From Oscillospiraceae bacterium (GTDB lineage: Bacteria > Bacillota > Clostridia > Oscillospirales > Oscillospiraceae), in the NCBI GenBank assembly GCA_022846095.1, contig AP025583.1, positions 124,001 through 188,000 on the forward strand: 64,000 nt of DNA. Reading direction: 5' to 3'. The number at the start of each line of letters is the position of its first letter. Position 1 is the stretch's first letter. Shown one piece after another: positions 10,068 through 18,872 of the stretch. The notes under the pieces are model-generated. The model saw only the letters and a list, made by a program, of their open reading frames with translations. It had not been told where the DNA came from and made no database searches. The translations under genes and the position numbers were made by a program.

Positions 10068-10143
10068 GCTGCTGTAGCTCAGGTGGTAGAGCACATCCTT
10101 GGTAAGGATGAGGTCTCCAGTTCGAATCTGGATAGCAGCTCCA
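10068..10143 (+). tRNA. tRNA-Thr (GGT), integration target
   Basis: Acceptor GCTGCTG pairs with TAGCAGC; anticodon loop TTGGTAA gives GGT; CCA at 10141-10143. The 3' 45 bases, from the anticodon loop to CCA, are repeated exactly at 18828-18872. This gene is therefore a host 5' half completed by a 3' half that the integrated element brought with it. Confidence 0.95.
10099..10143. repeat. Left att core (45-bp direct repeat)
   Basis: Identical to 18828-18872. It starts in the anticodon loop of tRNA-Thr and ends with CCA, so recombination here regenerates a functional tRNA. By convention it is the attachment site on the integrase side. Confidence 0.92.
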
Positions 10144-10145
10144 TG

Positions 10146-10188
10146 AAAAACCCTGTAACCGCAATGGTTACGGGGTTTTTACTTTTTT
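10146..10188 (+). terminator. Rho-independent terminator after tRNA-Thr
   Basis: A 15-bp stem (AAAAACCCTGTAACC with GGTTACGGGGTTTTT, one G-T), loop GCAAT, followed by a T-rich tail to 10188. It lies just inside the element, so it is element-borne and replaces the host terminator now displaced to 18875. Confidence 0.88.
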
Positions 10189-10208
10189 GAGCCGAAAAGG
10201 GATGCTCT

Positions 10209-10235
10209 GAAAAACCCAGACAAAAACCCAGACGG
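10209..10235. repeat. Left arm-type integrase sites
   Basis: Two direct copies of AAAACCCAGAC spaced 11 bases apart, 66 bases inside the left att core. A near copy of the whole block is at 18664-18688 inside the right end. Paired direct repeats flanking both att cores are the expected arrangement for arm-binding sites of a tyrosine integrase with an N-terminal arm-binding domain. Confidence 0.6.
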
Positions 10236-10259
10236 GGCCCAAAAAAGTAGCCGGGCAGG

Positions 10260-11468
10260 TCATCCCTGCCCGGCTATCTTCATGTCATTCTTTAGGGCGT
10301 TTCTGAAAATCTGGCTGGCCCGCTTCATGCTCTCCTGGTCGGCGTGGGTGTACATCCGCAGCGTGACGCCTTTATCACTGTGCCCCAGCTTCTCGGATAC
10401 ACTGGCAATGTCGGCCCCGCTGGTGATCGCGATGCTGGCGAAGGTGTGCCGCAGCTTGTGGGGGTGCAAGTCGAGGACGCTGTAGCGCGCGGAAAACTTT
10501 TTCATGTACCGGGTAGGGCTCTGCGGGTGCATCGGCTCAGGGCTGTTGTCCTGAGTGAAAACAAAGGAGCTGATGGCGTGGGCGGCCTGTTCGCTCCGCA
10601 GGGAGCGGAGCAGCGCCATAATCTCCGGGTCTACGTCAACCACGCGGGCCTTTCCATTCTTGGGGGTGTCCAGGTATACCCCCTTCTGAGGTGTGTAGCA
10701 GAGGTTGCCCGCAATGGTGATGGTGCTGTCCTTGAAATTCAGGTTCTCCCATTTCAGGCCGCAGCACTCTCCGCGCCGTATCCCTGTATCGATGAGGAGC
10801 CGGATGAGCACACGCCACTTTGGCGGCTCGTTGTCCAGGGCTGCAAGTATCCGGCGTACCTGCTCCACCGTGTAGGCCTCCACCTCCGGCTCCCTGGCTT
10901 CATCCTTGCGGGGGCGGGGGCGCTCCACCTTGTCCATGGGGTTCTTGGGTATGGTGTCGGAGAGATAGGCCATTTTAAACAGGCCGTTGAGGATGGTATA
11001 GCATTTTACGACTGTGGCGTGGGCTTTGCCTTGGGCCTGCATGGACAGCAGCAGGGCGGATATATTGGCCGGGGTAATATCGGGCATTTTCAGGTTGCCA
11101 AGGGCGGGGTAGATCCAGCGGTCGAGCTGGCATTGGAAGCTGCACCGGCTGTTCTCCGCCATGGAGATGGTTTTTGCAGGCATGAAGACCTCTTCCCCAT
11201 ATTGGCTGAGGGTCTGAACCTTGGCGGACTCCCGCTTGGCGGCCAGCTCCCGTTCCGCCTGCTCCGCGCGGCTGATGACCTCGCCCGCGTCACATTGGCG
11301 CTCAAAATCGGCGGCCACCTTGGACAGCTCCCGGTCTATGGCCCGCTGGCTCCAGCCCTCAGGGGGATACCACCGTGTGGAAAGGGGCGCGACGCCACGC
11401 CCGCGGCTGACACGAATCTCATAGAAAACCAAGCCGGATTTGTTGGCCTTTCTCCTGGTAGACGGCAT
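10260..11468 (-). CDS. Tyrosine-type site-specific integrase
   Basis: Catalyses integration and excision of the element at tRNA-Thr. The 402 residues comprise an N-terminal arm-binding-like segment (about 1-80), a SAM-like core-binding domain (about 85-185) and the catalytic domain (about 195-390). The catalytic set is intact: Arg231 in DTGIRRGE, Lys near 270, His337 and Arg340 in HPHKLRHTF, His363 in LGHSD and nucleophile Tyr373 in RMYTH. It reads toward the att site and tRNA, 117 bases from the core. A Shine-Dalgarno-like GGAAAAGGGA precedes ATG 11468. Tn916/ICE-type integrases are the closest kind; length is normal. Confidence 0.95.
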   Translation of the reverse strand: MPSTRRKANKSGLVFYEIRVSRGRGVAPLSTRWYPPEGWSQRAIDRELSKVAADFERQCDAGEVISRAEQAERELAAKRESAKVQTLSQYGEEVFMPAKTISMAENSRCSFQCQLDRWIYPALGNLKMPDITPANISALLLSMQAQGKAHATVVKCYTILNGLFKMAYLSDTIPKNPMDKVERPRPRKDEAREPEVEAYTVEQVRRILAALDNEPPKWRVLIRLLIDTGIRRGECCGLKWENLNFKDSTITIAGNLCYTPQKGVYLDTPKNGKARVVDVDPEIMALLRSLRSEQAAHAISSFVFTQDNSPEPMHPQSPTRYMKKFSARYSVLDLHPHKLRHTFASIAITSGADIASVSEKLGHSDKGVTLRMYTHADQESMKRASQIFRNALKNDMKIAGQG

Positions 11469-11554
11469 AAAATCATTCCCTTTTCCGGCCCCGTGTGCTA
11501 GAATAAAAGGGCATACAGGGCCTATACTTGCGAGGTGTGGGGCTGTGCGCGTTG

Positions 11555-11594
11555 CCCGCTTGGAGGTTGCAGCCTCCGAGCGGGTTTTATTTTT
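11555..11594 (+). terminator. Plus-strand terminator between two minus-strand genes
   Basis: CCCGCTTGGAGG pairs with CCTCCGAGCGGG (one T-G), followed by TTTTATTTTT. The U-tract is on the plus side only, although both neighbours are minus-strand genes. It implies a short plus-strand transcript, perhaps starting after the extended -10 TGTGCTAGAAT at 11490-11500, antisense to the integrase leader. Confidence 0.6.
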
Positions 11595-12177
11595 CTACAT
11601 AATCAATCAGTTTTAATAATTCTTTCTTTAGCCCTACACTATCACCGGGGAAAATACCCATTAATTCTTGCTGTGCGCTCAATAGTACCTTTGAATGGAG
11701 AAGCCGAATCACGTATTGCTGAGGCAAATCATCAAGTAGTCCTTCATATTGCCCTTGGACAAGATAAAACGCAATATATAACTCTAGCCCCGTAATGTTA
11801 TCGCGCTTTATATGTGCAATGATATTCGCTTTTGCCTCTTCATTGGACATTATATGCAGTTCTTCCCATAGATGCTTTTCATATTCTGAAATATCCTTAG
11901 TACTGATAGATTCTAATTCGCTAAGAGAGGTATAAAGGTTTCCATCTCCATCTGTAAAAAGTGTAATTTCGTCTCCGACTGCTAAAATGTCGGAAACTGA
12001 GGTGTGGTATATATCGCAAAGTTTGGTTAGTGTCTCTACGTCTACTCGATTTGTGCCGCGTTCATAATTGCTGATAGCCTGCGGGGTAATTTCTAAAAGC
12101 TGTGCAACTTCTGATTGTGTCATTCCTGCACTAATTCTGGCACGCTTTATTTTGTCTGCTAGTCCGCCATTGCCCAC
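11587..12177 (-). CDS. XRE-family repressor (CI-like) of the element
   Basis: Likely master repressor. Residues about 5-60 form a lambda-repressor-type HTH (ARISAGMTQSEVAQLLEITP then QAISNYERG); residues 70-196 are an uncharacterised helical C-terminal region, with no LexA-like Ser/Lys protease motif seen. The start is GTG 12177, eight bases after GGGAGG. It is transcribed divergently from the small XRE gene at 12375 from a promoter whose -35 overlaps an operator (12227-12241), so self-regulation is likely. Base composition is much more AT-rich than in the flanking host genes, consistent with transfer. Confidence 0.82.
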   Translation of the reverse strand: MGNGGLADKIKRARISAGMTQSEVAQLLEITPQAISNYERGTNRVDVETLTKLCDIYHTSVSDILAVGDEITLFTDGDGNLYTSLSELESISTKDISEYEKHLWEELHIMSNEEAKANIIAHIKRDNITGLELYIAFYLVQGQYEGLLDDLPQQYVIRLLHSKVLLSAQQELMGIFPGDSVGLKKELLKLIDYVEK

Positions 12178-12201
12178 ATGGTAGCCCTCCCTTCATGTTT
12201 A

Positions 12202-12230
12202 ATTATATACACTTTTGCGCATTAAGTCAA
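12202..12230 (-). promoter_or_regulatory. Repressor promoter (minus strand)
   Basis: On the minus strand TTGACT (12225-12230), 17-base spacer, TATAAT (12202-12207), about 25 bases before the GTG start of the repressor gene. The -35 lies within the first operator copy. Confidence 0.82.
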
Positions 12231-12355
12231 CAATTCATTGAGTCTGAGTGTGCAACATAATAACTAAATAAATCATTGAGTTTTTGTATGCACTGTCAAT
12301 TGAACTAAACGAATTGTTGAGCTATACTAAAAGCGTAAACTCAACAAATCATTGA
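12227..12355. repeat. Four operator repeats of the divergent switch
   Basis: The dyad TCAA-N7-TTGA recurs: TCAACAATTCATTGA at 12227-12241; TAAATAAATCATTGA (one good half) at 12265-12279; TAAACGAATTGTTGA (reverse orientation, one good half) at 12306-12320; TCAACAAATCATTGA at 12341-12355. Copy 1 covers the -35 of the leftward promoter, copy 3 fills the spacer of the rightward promoter, and copy 4 lies at its start region. This placement is typical of a bistable phage-like switch. Confidence 0.8.
12300..12328 (+). promoter_or_regulatory. Rightward element promoter
   Basis: TTGAAC (12300-12305), 17-base spacer containing operator copy 3, TATACT (12323-12328). It drives the gene run starting at 12375. 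Confidence 0.82.
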
Positions 12356-12374
12356 TGTAAATGGAGGTGATACC

Positions 12375-12650
12375 ATGGTACGCAGAGTAGTTACAGCATC
12401 TGGAAATGGAGAACGTATTTTCACAGCGCGCGTTTACAACGGTATGAGCATGAGGGACTTAGCAGAAAAGGCTGGAGTTAGCGCTTCTGCAATTCATAAG
12501 ATTGAAAGCGGCGAATCTGGCACGGTTAGACCTGTTAATGCACGAAAAATTTGTGCAGCACTCGGAAAATCCTTTGATGACTTGTTTACCATTAAGGAGA
12601 AGGAACCCGAGCGGAAAAGCAAGGATGTCGGCAGCGACAAACCCGCATAA
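12375..12650 (+). CDS. Small XRE-family regulator (Cro-like)
   Basis: A 91-residue DNA-binding protein. An XRE HTH spans about residues 15-70 (RDLAEKAGVSASAIHKIESG), followed by a short charged tail. It starts at ATG 12375 after a strong GGAGGTGAT. It is the first gene of the rightward transcript, opposite the repressor at 11587 and separated from it by the operator-rich region, so a Cro-like antagonist role is inferred from position. Confidence 0.82.
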   Translation: MVRRVVTASGNGERIFTARVYNGMSMRDLAEKAGVSASAIHKIESGESGTVRPVNARKICAALGKSFDDLFTIKEKEPERKSKDVGSDKPA

Positions 12651-12655
12651 TCCCC

Positions 12656-12679
12656 AAATCCGCAACCAGTTGCGGATTT
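12656..12679. repeat. Element palindrome, copy 1
   Basis: Perfect inverted repeat, arms AAATCCGCAAC and GTTGCGGATTT around CA. Related palindromes are at 17931-17960 and 18617-18646. There is no U-tract, so a simple terminator role is doubtful; a second short hairpin GCGCCCGAGCGGGCGC follows at 12693-12708. Confidence 0.75.
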
Positions 12680-12731
12680 GCCCATGAAAAAAGCGCCCGA
12701 GCGGGCGCGGTACGATGAAAGGAGAGTAACT

Positions 12732-12989
12732 ATGGCAAGGGAAAGACAGGTTCCATTCCAGAAAATCCAGGAGGCGTGCAAGACCACCGGCTTTTCCATG
12801 TACTTCTTGCGCAAGGGGTGCCTGGACGGGACGGTGCCCCATGTGAAGAGCGGAAGCACGTATTACATCAACGTGCCCGCGCTGCTCCGCCGCCTGGGGG
12901 CAACCACGGAGGAGCCGGAGGGGAGCGGCACGGGGGAACGGGCGGCAAAGGTCACCGACATCAGCGCCGCAGGGCGGAAACGGGCGTGA
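12732..12989 (+). CDS. Excisionase-like HTH DNA-binding protein
   Basis: Small 85-residue protein with a MerR/Xis-type winged-helix pattern: FQKIQEACKTTGFSMYFLRK, then a GTVPHVKSGSTYYINVPALL wing-like segment. Such proteins direct integrases toward excision. The frame opens at 12678, but ATG 12732 follows a clear AAAGGAGAG and gives the usual N-terminus. Its stop is two bases before the next ATG, so translation is probably coupled. Confidence 0.75.
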   Translation: MARERQVPFQKIQEACKTTGFSMYFLRKGCLDGTVPHVKSGSTYYINVPALLRRLGATTEEPEGSGTGERAAKVTDISAAGRKRA

Positions 12990-12991
12990 GT

Positions 12992-13561
12992 ATGCGTCTA
13001 TCCATGTGGGAAGGCGCGGCCCTTCTTGCCGCCCTGGCTGTGGCCCTGTCGTCAGAAGCGCTGCTGGACAAGCCGTTCGGCCCGCTCGCGCTCATGGCCG
13101 CCGTGGCCCTACCCGCCCTGCTGGTATGGACGGCACACCGTCTACCCGGCACGGTGCCCGACCGCAGGCGGGGGCATAGGGAAAGCCGCCCCGGTGTCAC
13201 AACCACCAGGACGGCCACGGGAACGACAAGTGCAAGCCCATCTATTCCACGCCTCTATTTTACAGGGGCAGAAAGGTTTTGTCAAATGCCGAATTGTGAA
13301 ATTATCCAGGCCCTCTATCTGGCCTGCGGCGGCTTTACTGTTGAGAGCATGAACCGGGAGTATGTACACCTCCCCAGCGCCGAGGAGGCCAGCGAGCGGG
13401 CCAGATGGGCCGTGGAGCAGGGAGAGACGGCGGAGCTGGAGGAGCTGTGCGCGGCCACGGAGGCCGAGCATGAGATCCAGGGGTTTGTGAACGGCTTCCG
13501 CATGGGGGTGCGGCTCATGGTCGAGTGCGCCACCTCCGCCGCAGGAGGTGACCGGGCATGA
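12992..13561 (+). CDS. DUF6809-like protein with N-terminal membrane segments
   Basis: The 189-residue frame has two distinct parts. Residues 1-50 form two hydrophobic helices; residues 50-98 are a Pro/Arg/Thr-rich linker. The part from Met99 (ATG 13286, MPNCEIIQALYLACGG) to the end resembles small DUF6809 proteins of clostridial mobile elements, ending in HEIQGFVNGFRMGVRLM. An AAAGG nine bases before 13286 makes an internal start possible, in which case the membrane part would be a separate or non-coding stretch. No stop separates them, and ATG 12992 is coupled to the upstream stop. Function unknown. Confidence 0.6.
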   Translation: MRLSMWEGAALLAALAVALSSEALLDKPFGPLALMAAVALPALLVWTAHRLPGTVPDRRRGHRESRPGVTTTRTATGTTSASPSIPRLYFTGAERFCQMPNCEIIQALYLACGGFTVESMNREYVHLPSAEEASERARWAVEQGETAELEELCAATEAEHEIQGFVNGFRMGVRLMVECATSAAGGDRA

Positions 13562-13707
13562 TAGACCTGGAGACCCGGCGTTTCCTGGAGAGCGCCAAGA
13601 GCAGCGCGGAGGACGTGCAGGCCATGTTCGGCGGCATCAAGACTGTGCTGGAGGCCACGGATGACCATGTGCCTACATACGGGAGGCACCCTTTGACGCC
13701 GGAGTGA
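13558..13707 (+). CDS. Small hypothetical protein (49 aa)
   Basis: Starts in an ATGA overlap with the preceding stop. It encodes MIDLETRRFLESAKSSAEDV and a further 29 residues, mostly helical and acidic, including FGGIKTVLE. Its stop overlaps a GTG (GTGA at 13704-13707) that opens the next small frame, whose own start reads VKTVLDYH. The similarity IKTVLE/VKTVLD suggests either a duplicated helix or a single ancestral gene split by a frameshift. Coupled overlaps on both sides favour translation. Function unknown. Confidence 0.5.
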   Translation: MIDLETRRFLESAKSSAEDVQAMFGGIKTVLEATDDHVPTYGRHPLTPE

Positions 13708-13880
13708 AAACCGTCCTGGACTACCATGCGGACAGCTTGCAGGAGCTGCTGGGTGTTGCCGGACACCTCCTGCTGGAGATGGAGGCGCAGCAGGACGCTC
13801 TGGTTCATCTCCTGTGCGGGAAGGTATTCGAGAACCACCGCGTGCAGGGCGGCGGGACGCCGCTTGAAAGGGGGGCGTGA
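13704..13880 (+). CDS. Small hypothetical helical protein (58 aa)
   Basis: GTG start inside a four-base overlap with the previous stop. The product runs through VKTVLDYHADSLQELLGVAG and LLLEMEAQQDALVHLLC, an amphipathic helical protein, and ends three bases before the next ATG. It could instead be the C-terminal part of the 13558 frame after a frameshift near 13690. Function unknown. Confidence 0.45.
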   Translation: MKTVLDYHADSLQELLGVAGHLLLEMEAQQDALVHLLCGKVFENHRVQGGGTPLERGA

Positions 13881-13883
13881 GGC

Positions 13884-14192
13884 ATGGACATTGCGTTTCT
13901 GAAAGCCCTCTATTACGCCTGCTCCAACCCGAGCGGGCAAACCGCCCTGCTACCGCTCCACGCCCGGTACCTTGACCTAACGGAGCCCCAGCGCGTCCTG
14001 TGCCGGCTCTACGCCCTGCTGGGGGACGATGTGGCAGATGACCTGGACTGCACCATAGGCGAGTGCGCAACGGCCTATGAGCTCCAGGGGTTCGTGAACG
14101 GCTTCCGCTACGGGGCCATGCTGGCCGGAGAGCTGGCCGGGGACTTTCCCCGCCAGCTCTGGCACCCTGAAACCCCTTTGGGAGAAACATAA
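13884..14192 (+). CDS. DUF6809-like small protein
   Basis: A 102-residue protein: MDIAFLKALYYACSNPSGQT at the N-terminus and YELQGFVNGFRYGAMLAGEL near the C-terminus, the same end signature as the protein at 12992-13561, so the two are paralogs. A G-rich Shine-Dalgarno (AAAGGGGGGCG) precedes ATG 13884. Proteins of this kind are common in clostridial integrative elements; no biochemical function is known to me. Confidence 0.68.
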   Translation: MDIAFLKALYYACSNPSGQTALLPLHARYLDLTEPQRVLCRLYALLGDDVADDLDCTIGECATAYELQGFVNGFRYGAMLAGELAGDFPRQLWHPETPLGET

Positions 14193-14261
14193 CCGACAAC
14201 CGAAAATGTGGGCGGGGCTGCGGCCCCGCCCTGTGGCGTATACGAGCGGGAGGACGGGTAG

Positions 14262-14768
14262 ATGAAAAATCGAAGTATAAAGTCGGACAGCGCAAGGCAG
14301 CGGCTGAACCTGTATCAGTCGCTGGGGAAGCTGGCGCACGTCTTGGAGGCCAATTTCACCACTGGGGATACCCTGGTTACCCTGGCATATGACGGGGCCC
14401 ACCGGCCCCGCTCGCGGGAGCTGGCGGCCTGCTATCTGCGGGATTGGCTGGAGACTGTCCGCGGGCTGCGCAGCGAGCAGGGACAGGGCCTGCGCTATGT
14501 CTATGGGACGGACTGTGGCCAGGAGGACGGCGGCCCCATCCACCGCGTTGTGCTCGTCGCAACAGACTGCGACGTTGCCGCTATGGTTGCGCTGTGGCCC
14601 TATGGCCGCGCCAGTGCGGAGCGGCTGGAGCTGGGGGACGGGTGCCGCGAGCTGGCCTCCCTGCTCATGCGGGAAGCCGTGGAGGCAGGGCACGCCCCCG
14701 TGCCCTGTGGGCGCATGTGGGTACCCTCTGTGGGCCTGGAGAGGCCGGGGCGGCCTCATGCGGGGTAA
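14262..14768 (+). CDS. Rep-like protein lacking HUH residues, paralog 1
   Basis: A 168-residue protein that aligns by eye with the HUH initiator at 15884: LEANFTTGDTLVTLAYDGAH matches LAANFTRRDLFLTLTYRP, and RYVYGTDCG...IHRVVLVATDCDVAAMVALWPYG matches KYVYVTEDK...LHHHIVLKATERDIEVIRSLWPHG. The metal-binding histidine cluster is reduced to a single His (IHRVVL, residue 94), and no tyrosine equivalent to the Rep YATWAGYV segment is present. A nicking activity is therefore unlikely; DNA binding or regulation of Rep is an inference. Start: ATG 14262 after GGAGGACGGG. Confidence 0.7.
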   Translation: MKNRSIKSDSARQRLNLYQSLGKLAHVLEANFTTGDTLVTLAYDGAHRPRSRELAACYLRDWLETVRGLRSEQGQGLRYVYGTDCGQEDGGPIHRVVLVATDCDVAAMVALWPYGRASAERLELGDGCRELASLLMREAVEAGHAPVPCGRMWVPSVGLERPGRPHAG

Positions 14769-14772
14769 GGCG

Positions 14773-15264
14773 ATGGCTCAGCGCGGCACGAAATCCAGCC
14801 GCAGCATGAGGCGGGGGAACTTGAGGCGGTCGCTGGAGCGGCTGGAACGCCTCCTGGCGGCCAACTTTGCCACGGGGGATACCCTGGTCACCCTGGCATA
14901 CGACGGGGCCCAGCGCCCCCGCTCGCGGGAGCTGGCGGGATGTCATTTTTACAGCTGGATAAGGGCTGTCCGTACGGTTTATAGCGGCTGTGGGAAAGGC
15001 CTGCGCTATGCCTACGGTGTGGTGTGGGCCACCGATGAACGCGGGCCCATGTACCGCGTGATACTCAATACCTCCCAGGCCAACGGGGCCGCCCTGGCAG
15101 CGCTGTGGCCGCATGGCCCCGCAAGTGCGGAGCGGCTGAGACTGGAGGGCGGGTGCCATGAGCTGGCCGCCCTGCTCATGCGGCAGGCCGTGGAGGCCGG
15201 GGAAACCCCTGTCCCCTGTAGGCGGGTATGGGGTGCGTCCAGGAACATCATCAAGCCGGAATAA
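14773..15264 (+). CDS. Rep-like protein lacking HUH residues, paralog 2
   Basis: Closest to the preceding gene (shared GDTLVTLAYDGA, PRSRELA, LWP.GPASAERL and PVPC segments) and also related to the Rep at 15884; its end WGASRNIIKPE matches the Rep WTASRNMVKPK. The histidine cluster is replaced by MYRVIL, so metal binding is lost. I chose ATG 14773 (GGGGTAAGG upstream; the length then matches paralog 1); ATG 14758, overlapping the upstream stop, is the alternative. Likely a tandem duplicate, retained intact despite loss of catalytic residues. Confidence 0.68.
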   Translation: MAQRGTKSSRSMRRGNLRRSLERLERLLAANFATGDTLVTLAYDGAQRPRSRELAGCHFYSWIRAVRTVYSGCGKGLRYAYGVVWATDERGPMYRVILNTSQANGAALAALWPHGPASAERLRLEGGCHELAALLMRQAVEAGETPVPCRRVWGASRNIIKPE

Positions 15265-15277
15265 GGGAGCAGTATTT

Positions 15278-15670
15278 ATGAATTATTTGATTCACCCCGC
15301 AGAGGGGTACTTACAGGCGGTTAAGGCGTTGAAGGTGGCGCTGGCCGCCCCGATGGATAAGAAGCGGAGCAGAGAGGCCCAGGAGCGCGAGCGGGCCACG
15401 CTGGAAGTGGCGTTGGAGGCCCTGCGATACGCGGCGCTGTGCGCCGAGAATCCCCCGCTGACCCGAGCACACCTGAAGGACATGCACGGACGGGCCGTCT
15501 ACCTGGAGCACCCCCCGCAGGCAGGAACACTGGCGGGAATTGTGGATTGCAGGAATGAAACCATCCTAAGCTTGAGCCCATTTGGAGGAGCGGATACGCA
15601 CGAGTGGTTTTGCGGGAATACCGGGCGGTACTACCGCTTCCCACTCGGCGGCGCGGGCCTCATGAAATAG
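15278..15670 (+). CDS. Hypothetical protein of the element (130 aa)
   Basis: Starts at ATG 15278 with AGGGAG eight bases upstream. The N-terminal half is helical and charged (MDKKRSREAQERERATLEVA), containing one predicted long helix. The C-terminal half (HGRAVYLEHPPQAGTLAGIV ... HEWFCGNTGRYYRF) looks like the small beta-rich domain seen in many phage and plasmid hypothetical proteins, but I cannot assign a family. It lies in the same gene run between the Rep paralogs and the Rep gene. A 213-base gap without a gene follows. Confidence 0.6.
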   Translation: MNYLIHPAEGYLQAVKALKVALAAPMDKKRSREAQERERATLEVALEALRYAALCAENPPLTRAHLKDMHGRAVYLEHPPQAGTLAGIVDCRNETILSLSPFGGADTHEWFCGNTGRYYRFPLGGAGLMK

Positions 15671-15883
15671 CCCCCAGTGATACAAGGTTGCCGGTGCCCG
15701 CGTGGCCAGTGCAGGAGACACGCGCCGGGGCGGGCCCGGCTCACTCATTGCCGGCGAAAATCGGAGAGCCAGGGCCCACGCCGCAGTGCCAGAGCCGGAG
15801 CCAACAGCGCCCACTGGGGAATGTCCCGAGCGGGTATGCGGTTTGTTCCGGCTCTTTCTTATCTATTAACGAGAGGTGCCATC

Positions 15884-16630
15884 ATGGCCAAACGGAAAAA
15901 GACTATCACAGCGGGGAACCTGGTCAAGACCATCCTGTATAACGCCCCGGAGCCCCGCGACGGCGAGCGGGCGCGGGCGGCCAAGTCCCGCATCACCAGC
16001 GCGGCGCAGAAAGCCATGAACGACAAGACAGCCCGTGGGCGGCTGGAAATGCTCCTGGCGGCCAATTTCACCCGGCGCGACCTCTTCCTTACCCTGACCT
16101 ACCGCCCCACCGATTTGCCCGCCCAGCGGGCCCAGGCGGTCAAGAACGTGCGGCGCTTCCTGAAGCTGCTGCGGGAGTACCGCAAGGCGCGGGGTATTCC
16201 CATGAAATACGTGTATGTCACCGAGGACAAGCACGGAGCAGGCAAGCTCCACCACCATATTGTCCTGAAGGCCACTGAGCGGGACATTGAGGTGATCCGC
16301 AGCCTGTGGCCCCATGGGGATGTCGTTGACATCGAGTATATCGGGAGCCGGGAGTACGCCACGTGGGCCGGGTATGTGACCAAGGAGGGCGTACAGGGCC
16401 GCCCGGTGGGGGCGCAGATGTGGACGGCCAGCCGAAACATGGTTAAGCCCAAGGTGACAACCAGCTTTGCTGCAGAGGATGAAACCCTTGCACCTCCTCC
16501 CGGATGTCATGTCATCGAGCGGGAGGAGAAGGTTACAGAGTTTGGTAGTTACTGTTATATTAAGTACTGTGTACTTCCTAAATACTGGGAGAATCGGAGG
16601 CCGGAGGACAGAGCTTTGGAGCCCCTTTAG
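15884..16630 (+). CDS. HUH-type rolling-circle replication initiator
   Basis: Predicted Rep endonuclease that nicks the element origin to start rolling-circle replication of the excised circle. The 248 residues show motif 1 FLTLTY (about 68-73), motif 2 with the metal-binding histidines KLHHHIVL (His123-125) and motif 3 with candidate nucleophiles in EYATWAGYVTKEG (Tyr158, Tyr164, Lys167). The architecture is that of compact phage/plasmid Rep proteins without a helicase domain. Start ATG 15884 has GAGAGGTG seven bases upstream; the open frame before it is not used. The repeat-rich non-coding region downstream is the natural place for its origin. Confidence 0.82.
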   Translation: MAKRKKTITAGNLVKTILYNAPEPRDGERARAAKSRITSAAQKAMNDKTARGRLEMLLAANFTRRDLFLTLTYRPTDLPAQRAQAVKNVRRFLKLLREYRKARGIPMKYVYVTEDKHGAGKLHHHIVLKATERDIEVIRSLWPHGDVVDIEYIGSREYATWAGYVTKEGVQGRPVGAQMWTASRNMVKPKVTTSFAAEDETLAPPPGCHVIEREEKVTEFGSYCYIKYCVLPKYWENRRPEDRALEPL

Positions 16631-16791
16631 TCTTTTTTATAGTGACATATAACTTTAGAACGGTGGGTGTAGAAAGACGGTCAAACCCATTGAAGCGCTA
16701 AGGGATTCGGGCTATGCTTATCTTGAGGCCAGACAGCGCGCGCCCGCTCGCGAGAGCACGTGTGAGGGCTGGACAGAAAGGGGCGGTCAGG

Positions 16792-17112
16792 ATGGGAGAT
16801 ATGGCGACGGTGCGGTGCAGGGAGACCAACGGGGCCATGTGGGTGATATGCCCGGTATGCAGGGCCGGGAAGGTGTTGAAGCTGCGCATGGGAACCAAGG
16901 CGCGCAACCTGACGGTGTATTGCAGGCAGTGCAAGCACGAAAGCGTGATTGACATAGGGCCGGGAGAGGGTGGGGGAGCAGGGCCCCGCGTGACACTGGC
17001 CGTATATCCGCCTACCCCGGGGGGTGGGCAAAAAAGTATGCCTTACCACGGCGCAACACCGCAGGCTGTCTGTTCTGCGGCAAAGACTCCCCGATGCCCG
17101 GAAACGGCATAG
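16792..17112 (+). CDS. Cysteine-rich KTR-type zinc-ribbon protein
   Basis: Contains MWVICPVCRAGKVLKLRMGT followed by LTVYCRQCKHESVIDI: two CxxC knuckles 25 residues apart that should bind one zinc. This matches the small cysteine-rich KTR proteins of clostridial conjugative elements, whose role is unknown. The usual protein ends soon after the second knuckle; here a Gly/Pro-rich tail of about 45 residues follows. I chose ATG 16792 (AAAGGGGCGGTCAGG upstream); the frame is open from 16714 and ATG 16801 is also possible. Confidence 0.7.
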   Translation: MGDMATVRCRETNGAMWVICPVCRAGKVLKLRMGTKARNLTVYCRQCKHESVIDIGPGEGGGAGPRVTLAVYPPTPGGGQKSMPYHGATPQAVCSAAKTPRCPETA

Positions 17113-17300
17113 CGTGGTTTCCTCTGCATTTCTTGTTTTACCTGTCGCTCCCGCGTAGCAGGAGCGCACGCGAGGCAAAACAGGCCCCAAAATGAGTAAA
17201 AATCGGTCGCTTCACGGCGTGCTGGCTACGTACATGCCCGGATGCTCTGGCGCAGGTGCGACTGGGTGTGTGGGGGCACGTGCGCGGGGCCTACGGCCCG

Positions 17301-17347
17301 TACCTCCCCCCAGGGGCGGAAAGTTTCAAGACGTGGGTCGCAAGACC
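17301..17347 (+). repeat. Degenerate 47-base repeat, copy A
   Basis: Starts TACCTCCCCCC and ends CGCAAGACC, with GAAAGTTT in the middle; the same anchors occur in copy B at 17495-17540. Each copy is preceded by a GC hairpin (GGGCCTACGGCCC here), reminiscent of a stem-loop plus nick-site origin layout. Confidence 0.6.
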
Positions 17348-17494
17348 CCGAGGCCTCTCGGGTGTGAGAAAAAGTCCCGCATCAGAGATTCACCGCCCGC
17401 AGCGTATATAAAACGGGCTAAACCAGAGGTGTTATACGGGGGCAAATATCTGGGAAGGGCGGGATGCTTGGGCGGGCATGCGCCCGCGTGCGGT

Positions 17495-17540
17495 TACCTC
17501 CCCCCACCCCTCGAAAGTTTAAGTTTGTTGGCGCAAGACC
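17495..17540 (+). repeat. Degenerate 46-base repeat, copy B
   Basis: Shares TACCTCCCCCC, CGAAAGTTT and CGCAAGACC with copy A about 194 bases upstream, and is preceded by the hairpin GCGGGCATGCGCCCGC (17472-17487). Confidence 0.6.
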
Positions 17541-17650
17541 GCATGGCACCATTGGCGTAAGATTTTTTCCCCATGTAGAAACGGGGAGGCCCGCTCGAAA
17601 ATGAGTTTCGCCCGCATGTGGATGCTGCCTGTTCCTGTAGCCTGGGTGGC

Positions 17651-17917
17651 TCCCGGCCCGCTCGGTGGCCATTCCTGCGGGCGGTGCCCGTCCCCGTGGC
17701 CTGGGCGGCGCTCAGCTCGCCGGGGGTGATTTCCTGCTGGCGGTGCCCGTTCCTGCGGTCAGGGCTGTTCCCGGCCCGCTCGGGGGCCATTCCTGTGGGC
17801 GGTGCCCGTTCCTGCGGCCAGGGCGGCTCCCGGCCCGCTCGGCGGCCATTCCTGCGGATGGTGCCCGTTCCCGTGGCCTGGGCGGCTCCCGGCCCGCTCG
17901 GTGGACATTCCTGCGGG
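17651..17917. repeat. 59-bp tandem repeat array
   Basis: Units start at 17651, 17710, 17769, 17828 and 17887, an exact 59-base period, with most units beginning TCCCGGCCCGCTCGG; the last is cut short and a partial unit precedes 17651. Unit 2 is the most diverged. Since 59 is not a multiple of three, the array is not a protein repeat. GC content is very high. Confidence 0.85.
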
Positions 17918-17930
17918 TAAGGCTCGGGCC

Positions 17931-17960
17931 CTCAAACCCGCAGCCGGTTGCGGATTTGAG
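17931..17960. repeat. Element palindrome, copy 2
   Basis: CTCAAACCCGCAGC and GTTGCGGATTTGAG around CG, 14-base arms with one mismatch and one wobble. Related to the palindromes at 12656 and 18617. Confidence 0.7.
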
Positions 17961-17990
17961 GAGGGTATAGATTAGCGTGTGTATGCAATG

Positions 17991-18034
17991 CGAGCGGGCC
18001 ACCCCAGGGCAAAGGGTGGCCTGCTCGTTTTGTT
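17991..18034 (+). terminator. Strong plus-strand terminator
   Basis: CGAGCGGGCCACCC pairs with GGGTGGCCTGCTCG (one G-T), followed by TTTTGTT. It probably ends the long rightward transcript of the element. Confidence 0.75.
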
Positions 18035-18055
18035 CTGAGGTCTTCTCCGCCGCGA

Positions 18056-18080
18056 GGTGGGGTATCTTAAATACCCCACC
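18056..18080. other. Perfect 10-bp hairpin
   Basis: GGTGGGGTAT, loop CTTAA, ATACCCCACC. No U-tract on either strand; function unknown. Confidence 0.5.
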
Positions 18081-18231
18081 ATAAGAGCGGGAGAGGCTCG
18101 TTCTTCTGGCCTAATTACCTCCCGGCCTATTCGGAGCACTGCGCCTCTGAGGAAGGGGGGGAGGTTCAACGGACACCCTTTAGGGGCGCTCTGGCTCGCT
18201 TGGGGATGTGGGTGACCGAGCCTTAGCATAC

Positions 18232-18269
18232 AAAACGGGCAGTGCCGCATACGCAGCACCGCCCGTTTT
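18232..18269. terminator. Bidirectional terminator-like hairpin
   Basis: AAAACGGGC and GCCCGTTTT bracket an inner GTGC/GCAC stem. On the minus strand it follows the stop of the gene at 18282 and runs into TTTTGTATG, so it likely terminates that gene. Confidence 0.6.
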
Positions 18270-18281
18270 ATATAGCCATTT

Positions 18282-18563
18282 CTAATTTGCCCTTTTAAGT
18301 TCGGCAATCTCGCGGGTGTGTTTCTTAATCACGGCCTCCAAGGTATCCAGCCGTCCGTCAATAATGTCCATATCGTCTTCGTTGGGCATACGGCGGAGTA
18401 TATCCTCCTGCCCTTCAGCCAACAGATTAAACTTGGTCTGCACCTCGGTATCAAGTAGCACTTTCATATCGTGCATAAGTTCTTGCCGTAGTTCTGTTTT
18501 GATTTCCTGCTTCTGCTGGGCCAGCATCTGGCCGATAGCTTCAAGCAACGCCTTGTCTTCCAT
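18282..18563 (-). CDS. Small coiled-coil protein
   Basis: A 93-residue, highly charged protein predicted to be almost wholly helical (MLAQQKQEIKTELRQELMHD; DGRLDTLEAVIKKHTREIAE), with heptad patterning through most of its length. ATG 18563 is preceded by AAGGGGTGAT; a GTG three codons earlier would consume this ribosome site. It has its own near-consensus promoter (18584-18613) and terminator (18232-18269), so it is expressed separately from the main element transcript, as is common for accessory or maintenance genes. Similar coiled-coil proteins occur in clostridial elements; function unknown. Confidence 0.7.
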   Translation of the reverse strand: MEDKALLEAIGQMLAQQKQEIKTELRQELMHDMKVLLDTEVQTKFNLLAEGQEDILRRMPNEDDMDIIDGRLDTLEAVIKKHTREIAELKRAN

Positions 18564-18583
18564 CGGTATCACCCCTTATTTAG

Positions 18584-18613
18584 ATTATACGGTGCCATAT
18601 GTCTAACTGTCAA
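18584..18613 (-). promoter_or_regulatory. Promoter of the coiled-coil gene
   Basis: On the minus strand TTGACA (18608-18613), 18-base spacer, TATAAT (18584-18589). Both hexamers are consensus. A palindrome (18617-18646) sits directly upstream of the -35. Confidence 0.82.
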
Positions 18614-18616
18614 GAA

Positions 18617-18646
18617 GACAAATCCGCAACCGGCTGCGGATTTGTC
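18617..18646. repeat. Element palindrome, copy 3
   Basis: GACAAATCCGCAAC and GCTGCGGATTTGTC around CG: 14-base arms with one mismatch. It directly abuts the -35 of the coiled-coil gene promoter, so a protein-binding role is plausible. Confidence 0.75.
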
Positions 18647-18663
18647 GGAAATTTGTTTCCGAT

Positions 18664-18688
18664 AAAAACCCAGACAAAACCCATACGG
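18664..18688. repeat. Right arm-type integrase sites
   Basis: AAAAACCCAGACAAAACCC followed by ATACGG, a near copy of the left-end block at 10209-10235, lying 139 bases inside the right att core. Confidence 0.6.
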
Positions 18689-18827
18689 TATTACAAAAAA
18701 AGTTCGAAATAAGGGACAAGAGCATACGAGAGGCTGCGAAGGATAAAAGCCCGTATCCTTAGCGGCGCAAGGGAAATAGGGAAAAGTTTGCGACAGATTG
18801 CAAAAGATAAAAAACGCCAATATGTAA

Positions 18828-18872
18828 TTGGTAAGGATGAGGTCTCCAGTTCGAATCTGGATAGCAGCTCCA
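18828..18872. repeat. Right att core (tRNA-Thr 3' fragment)
   Basis: Exact 45-base copy of the tRNA-Thr 3' end without the 5' half. This is the original chromosomal 3' end displaced by integration, not a tRNA pseudogene arising by decay. Confidence 0.92.

Follow-up and report, generated by a model that had tools for sequence, protein, structure and literature searches.

We analyzed a stretch of 64,000 nucleotides (the window) of contig AP025583.1 from an Oscillospiraceae bacterium, in which a compact element is integrated at a tRNA-Thr gene. A sequence-only reading had described an 8.8-kb element with exact 45-bp attachment (att) repeats and an intact tyrosine integrase beside the intact tRNA gene, and all of this holds. 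As argued below, we think it very probable that the element is a phage satellite, moving in the particles of tailed helper phages.

The element at tRNA-Thr

The features on which the argument depends are listed here by window coordinates, strand, and identity.

10068..10143, + strand: tRNA-Thr (GGT), the target gene, left intact (ARAGORN; Rfam)
10099..10143, + strand: att core, 45 bp, tRNA-proximal copy, an exact repeat formed by the last 45 bases of the tRNA
10211..10233, + strand: two tandem AAAACCCAGAC repeats (starts 10211 and 10223), candidate integrase arm sites
10260..11468, - strand: tyrosine integrase, 402 amino acids (PF00589, E=3.6e-30; phrog_1, E=8e-60)
11587..12177, - strand: helix-turn-helix (HTH) repressor-like protein, 196 amino acids (PF01381, E=1e-14)
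12375..12650, + strand: Cro-like HTH protein, divergently encoded, 91 amino acids (PF01381, E=2e-11)
15884..16630, + strand: Rep, a HUH rolling-circle-type initiator with HHH motif and tyrosine intact (PF23343, E=7e-15; phrog_3584, E=4e-57; alignment)
16792..17112, + strand: Cys-rich KTR zinc-ribbon protein (PF14205, E=6e-10)
17011..17095, + strand: degenerate third cos-like copy overlapping the KTR open reading frame (ORF); weak, 13.7 bits, E=0.004 in the window
17261..17391, + strand: predicted cos site, type A (66.3 bits with the type-A prophage model, 24.4 with type B)
17464..17599, + strand: predicted cos site, type B (67.6 bits with the type-B model, 22.3 with type A)
18665..18686, + strand: two AAAACCCA(G/T)AC repeats inside the right end, likewise candidate arm sites
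18828..18872, + strand: att core, second copy, an exact repeat and tRNA 3' fragment

The two att copies lie 8,729 bp apart, start to start, with mismatches immediately outside them on both sides, and the element measures 8,774 bp when both repeats are included. The intact tRNA-Thr is the left copy, adjoining the integrase, and the right copy is a 3' fragment. Since seven relatives of the element show the same arrangement, with exact 23- to 24-bp repeats of a tRNA 3' end (i.e., of tRNA-Leu(GAG), Met, and Ser genes and of a tRNA-Thr-like 3' end) that span 7.2 to 8.4 kb, the 45-bp repeat is not a chance match. Arm-type AAAACCCAGAC repeats occur inside both ends, at 10211, 10223, and 18665, and at 18676 with one change. 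The element is present in a single copy in the host genome, which is one complete 4.31-Mb contig. The sequence-only reading had proposed a comparison with related genomes lacking the insert, which was possible in part: in other genomes of the family (sampled at one genome per species), the same tRNA-Thr is found without the element or with other integrases, and the junction rebuilt from both flanks approximates the tRNA-plus-terminator layout at such sites (e.g., loci L059 and L072).

Integrase and repressor genes run in one direction, and a candidate excisionase gene and the replication genes are divergent. The window copy carries no terminase, HNH, or structural gene. The sequence-only reading was correct that a Rep is present and that relaxase, capsid, and secretion genes are absent from this copy, and it had found the Rep and integrase while missing two further Rep-like genes and the two packaging-site sequences in the non-coding right part. 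As read from the sequence, the element combines integration at tRNA-Thr beside its own integrase, a divergent switch of the repressor/Cro type, a HUH Rep with its motifs intact, a module of Rep, zinc ribbon, and cos that related prophages also have, and cos sequences of both types.

The conserved non-coding sequence and its terminases

The interpretation turns on a conserved non-coding sequence of about 130 bp that lies roughly 0.7 to 1 kb 3' of rep in nearly all loci (about 0.8 kb in the window). It first came to light 3' of the zinc-ribbon gene as a repeat in the window that other satellites also conserve, and an iterated profile search then led to loci with distant Reps, which are prophages. 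There, the order is Rep, zinc ribbon, HNH (PF01844), conserved sequence, and the small and large terminase subunits, TerS (PF05119) and TerL (PF20441/PF03354); the KTR zinc ribbon sits between rep and the conserved sequence in 29 related prophage-type loci, and the start of TerS is usually no more than a few tens of bases away from that sequence. Two sequence types, A and B, accompany two terminase groups, between which TerL is about 24% identical, and in all 37 prophage loci compared, the type corresponds to the terminase group. This count comprises 26 of 26 true prophages classified correctly by leave-one-out prophage models (raw, 26/27, with L098, which has no terminase and was mislabeled type B, excluded) and 11 of 11 loci fetched afterwards.

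Rep identity, in contrast, does not follow type. The Reps of L088 and L096 are 96.6% identical and those of L082 and L087 are 87% identical, and in both pairs the types differ; the Rep tree requires at least 11 changes of site type, and prophages with Reps just 28 to 31% identical retain a near-consensus site. Because the conserved sequence lies against terS and varies with the terminase but not with the Rep, as is expected of a packaging site, it is almost certainly the phage cos site. The complete Flavonifractor phage Cormatin, for which 5' cos ends have been reported from virion sequencing (PMC10197239), has a type-B sequence flanked by HNH and TerS (ON453905, E=3e-16).

Two side observations concern how these modules are assembled. 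Near-identical replication genes are joined to different terminase/cos modules in L088 versus L096, L082 versus L087, and L165 versus L166, a sign that rep and cos recombine often. In prophage loci L169 and L170, a type-A TerS lies beside cos and a second, type-B-like TerS precedes a type-A TerL.

The window element carries one predicted site of each type, about 200 bp apart. Across 500 dinucleotide shuffles of this region, no score exceeded 9.5 bits (A) or 6.8 bits (B), and the only two strong cos matches in the 4.3-Mb genome both lie inside the element. Four relatives also have two copies: L017 and L018 have clear B-A pairs, and L016 and L012 have A-B pairs with a less distinct A copy (the right end of L012 is apparently on contig L173 of the same genome). 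Four loci have B only (L008, L009, L011, and L013), two have A only (L106 and L098), and L020 is ambiguous. We lean, with some reserve, toward a satellite family that hedges between helpers: given two sites whose terminase specificities differ, either of two phage groups with terminases about 24% identical would be able to package it.

The probable satellite family, its putative helpers, and rival explanations

Taking Reps at 65 to 74% identity to the window Rep as the family marker, we found 17 loci in addition to that of the window (18 in all), from Flavonifractor, Pseudoflavonifractor, Oscillibacter, Dysosmobacter, and other relatives, and the Rep clade is present in about 14 of the 400 sampled genomes. 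The family elements are compact and tRNA integrated, mostly 7.2 to 9.1 kb, and retain the same layout across genera; in a phylogeny of 60 Reps, those of the 18 satellite loci group on a single branch (Shimodaira-Hasegawa-like approximate likelihood ratio test, SH-aLRT, 97). L016 uses the window's tRNA-Thr, with a near-exact repeat 9.1 kb away, whereas L106, at tRNA-Ser, spans 10.7 kb and L098, at tRNA-Leu, is 6.2 kb long and has a type-A site but no terminase. The window integrase is 79 to 80% identical to those of L012 and L016, at the same tRNA-Thr (79% for L016). Integrases elsewhere in the family are only about 30% identical, and thus the integration module has been exchanged while the Rep region stays. 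HNH, TerS, and TerL are absent from all 18 satellite loci and must therefore come from a helper. One sister satellite, the 7.6-kb L015, encodes a single prohead-protease/HK97-capsid fusion (L015:11605-13353; PF04586, E=1e-30; PF05065, E=3e-10) just inside its tRNA-Leu att repeat.

The window element thus has its own integration and replication genes, no full structural or lysis set, and a packaging signal that matches helper phage by sequence. Its best reading is as a cos-packaged satellite of PICI-like layout (PICI, phage-inducible chromosomal island) in which a HUH Rep replaces the primase/rep module. Arguing by analogy, we propose that helper infection or prophage induction would flip the repressor/Cro-type switch, that the element would then excise as a circle, and that Rep would begin rolling-circle replication to yield a concatemer, which helper HNH and terminase would cut and load at cos. 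Because both sites are carried, a helper of terminase group A or B could do so. A 35-kb helper genome is about four times the length of the 8.7-kb unit, which makes concatemer packaging in normal heads, as reported for the Vibrio satellites discussed below, plausible; several units would probably fill a normal-sized head.

Phage affinity is also seen in co-occurrence, albeit modestly: by Rep identity tiers, a satellite-bearing genome also holds a related prophage in 6 of 14 cases, versus 48 of 386 genomes without a satellite (Fisher p=0.006). Among distant Reps, the short gut “phage” records MT836660, MT837226, and MT836068 were considered as packaged satellites and rejected, as neither cos type is present in them.

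Several points weigh against packaging by helpers. We infer it, for the window element, from sequence. The host genome has no cognate helper prophage, matching terminase, or second cos locus, so the helper is either absent or infects from outside, and a scan of IMG/VR for the Rep gave no match. No recognizable cos is present in L007, L019, or L021, and L015 has a half site, the first half, beside the protease-capsid gene. The published Cormatin terminus (28,255) is in another numbering and is unmatched to the site at about 21.6 kb of ON453905. Finally, genes of the rolling-circle replication (RCR) initiator class also occur in elements mobilized by conjugation.

That last point leads to the rival that survives best, although we consider it unlikely, namely, that the element is an integrative and mobilizable element (IME) whose HUH Rep acts like a relaxase, nicking an origin of transfer (oriT), with the circle transferred by a co-resident conjugative element. 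Streptococcal IMEs do pair tyrosine integrases with RCR-initiator-like putative relaxases, the PHA00330 class included, and some lack a coupling protein (PMC5357655, PMC5704250); moreover, the host genome encodes four VirB4-like ATPases, which suggest that conjugative elements are present. (The same genome has one unrelated TerL, a 582-amino-acid frame at G000:C1:4149660, suggesting a resident prophage of another type.) However, the window element has no coupling protein, its Rep family, zinc ribbon, and cos are prophage genes and sites, the conserved non-coding sites track terminase rather than Rep, and a sister element encodes a capsid. Of the sequence-only reading's type assignment, the description of a compact mobile element that is integrated at tRNA-Thr and encodes an integrase and a Rep stands; its emphasis on a replicative or mobilizable element, which suggests a plasmid-like element or one mobilized by conjugation, gives way to phage packaging, on account of the packaging sites, the module shared with prophages, and the capsid-encoding sister.

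A second rival takes the conserved sequence to be the nicking origin of Rep and the element to be an integrating rolling-circle plasmid. The nearly constant position of the sequence 3' of rep would fit, and the element needs an origin somewhere; nonetheless, we rejected this reading and regard it as very improbable, given that the type of the sequence matches the terminase group in every prophage locus regardless of Rep identity, that a near-consensus site persists beside such divergent Reps, and that the sequence abuts terS. Least probable of all is a degenerate prophage remnant that has lost structural genes and mobility, for although Rep, zinc ribbon, and cos are shared with prophages and the site is used by other integrases, the att repeats, integrase, and Rep are all intact, Rep is under purifying selection (ratio of nonsynonymous to synonymous substitution rates, dN/dS, 0.10 to 0.22) and branches apart from prophage Reps, and many relatives of similar size and conserved layout occupy different tRNA genes across genera.

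Remaining genes, known systems, and implications

The other features of the window element are as follows.

12732..12989, + strand: small conserved DNA-binding-like protein, candidate excisionase (68 to 71% identical in L012/L016)
13286..13561, + strand: DUF6809-like protein (PF20648, E=4e-5, just under the cutoff)
13558..13880, + strand: two small ORFs, 13558-13707 and 13704-13880, with weak homologs in L016
13884..14192, + strand: second DUF6809-like protein, a paralog of the 13286-13561 protein, with homologs in L008 and L013
14262..14768, + strand: Rep paralog 1, catalytic residues lost (HUH to IHR; YxTKE Tyr to Leu) (phrog_3584, E=2e-23; alignment)
14773..15264, + strand: Rep paralog 2, catalytic residues lost (HUH to MYR; Tyr to Leu) (phrog_3584, E=6e-23)
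15278..15670, + strand: conserved 130-amino-acid protein (45 to 60% identical in L006, L007, L010, and L013)
17617..17976, + strand: GC-rich tandem array, 59-bp period, directly after the cos pair
18282..18572, - strand: 96-amino-acid coiled-coil protein (phrog_33872, E=1e-15)

Rep-like proteins whose HUH triad is missing or down to one histidine, and whose catalytic tyrosine has been substituted, occur in the window (two in tandem) and in ten satellite relatives (L008, L010-L016, and L017/L018, the last two with a separate version 3' of the cos sites). The dN/dS of these paralogs is 0.29 to 0.64, versus the lower values given above for Rep; this is below neutral, and therefore they are probably maintained as proteins. 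The predicted model of paralog 2, of high confidence (predicted local distance difference test score, pLDDT, 86.5), gives a weak Foldseek likeness to HUH Reps (E about 0.01 to 0.07). We speculate that the inactive paralogs might have a regulatory role, binding Rep or origin DNA, or might block the helper's related Rep.

Family searches gave no match for the candidate excisionase, and neither family nor fold searches gave one for the 130-amino-acid protein. The coiled-coil protein falls in a phage protein family, and Flavonifractor phage Castelnaud encodes a relative. A PADLOC search for defense genes returned generic HTH matches to the repressor and nothing else, and an Rfam search of the non-coding region returned the tRNA only. 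GC-rich repeat tracts also follow the cos region in L017, L018, L020, and L106. Three near-perfect 26-bp palindromes (CAAATCCGCAACC..GGTTGCGGATTTG) lie at 12655-12680, 17933-17958, and 18619-18644, and L013 and L017 have their own, different pairs at similar positions; as the palindromes differ in other satellites, operators or terminators are a likelier reading of them than a Rep origin. Sister elements L006, L007, L009, L019, and L020 encode a sigma-70-like factor, and L019 also has a Rha-like regulator and a Uma2-like cargo gene.

How does this family compare with known systems? Cos-packaged PICIs, including the Staphylococcus aureus pathogenicity islands (SaPIs) (EcCICFT073, SaPIbov4/5; PMC6092414), likewise have integrase and repressor leftward and excision and replication genes rightward, lack lytic genes, and are packaged via helper cos. 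The window element differs in having a HUH Rep instead of a primase/rep module (no primase match was found), no terS or recognizable capsid-size gene in this copy, two cos sites of two terminase groups, and a length of 8.7 kb rather than about 15 kb. The sequence-only reading had matched the element to no named family; its layout resembles that of PICI-type satellites, but the PICI primase/rep module is absent, and the tRNA-Thr site, which may or may not be exclusive to PICIs, holds other integrases in other genomes. Two cos sites in one satellite have been shown for EcCICFT073 in Escherichia coli and proposed for SaPIbov4 (PMC6092414), and SaPIbov5 has both pac and cos features (PMC9006064); our search of literature available without subscription found no satellites that match two unrelated terminase groups via two distinct cos sites.

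The phage-inducible chromosomal minimalist islands (PICMIs) of Vibrio (PMC10803314) are also very small, do not remodel capsids, and are proposed to replicate by rolling circle, with concatemers in full-sized heads; in contrast, their genes and hosts are unrelated, packaging is headful-like with no cos found, and the helper is virulent. The alpA-int-primase core at fis in Vibrionaceae that marks PICMIs is not found in the window element. IMEs of the PHA00330 class (PMC5357655) share a tyrosine integrase and small HUH Rep-like protein, insertion at tRNA genes or gene ends, and similar size, yet they are proposed to use conjugation, mostly with TcpA, whereas the window element has cos sites, prophage-type neighbors, and no TcpA. 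Clostridia phages Cormatin (ON453905) and Butyrivibrio phage Arawn (NC_048848) have Reps of the same family, about 30% identical, but are complete tailed phages; in Cormatin, a type-B cos lies near Rep, with HNH and terminase beside it. Among capsid-encoding satellites (SaPIbov5, PmCI172, and cf-PICI), the sister L015 is alike in holding protease and capsid inside att repeats, although as one fused gene rather than a packaging/head cluster, and the window copy has no capsid gene.

Helper-satellite pairing is hard to predict, given the shortness of packaging signals, most of which are unknown (PMC11389934). In the present family, the signal can be recognized in the sequence and its type predicts the terminase group throughout the prophages, and therefore genomes from a major gut family can be used to predict which satellite pairs with which helper, and such predictions can be tested. 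If true, sites of two specificities would be the phage-packaging counterpart of mobilizable plasmids that carry several oriTs, and the family would extend satellites beyond the well-studied Staphylococcus, enterobacterial, and Vibrio systems.

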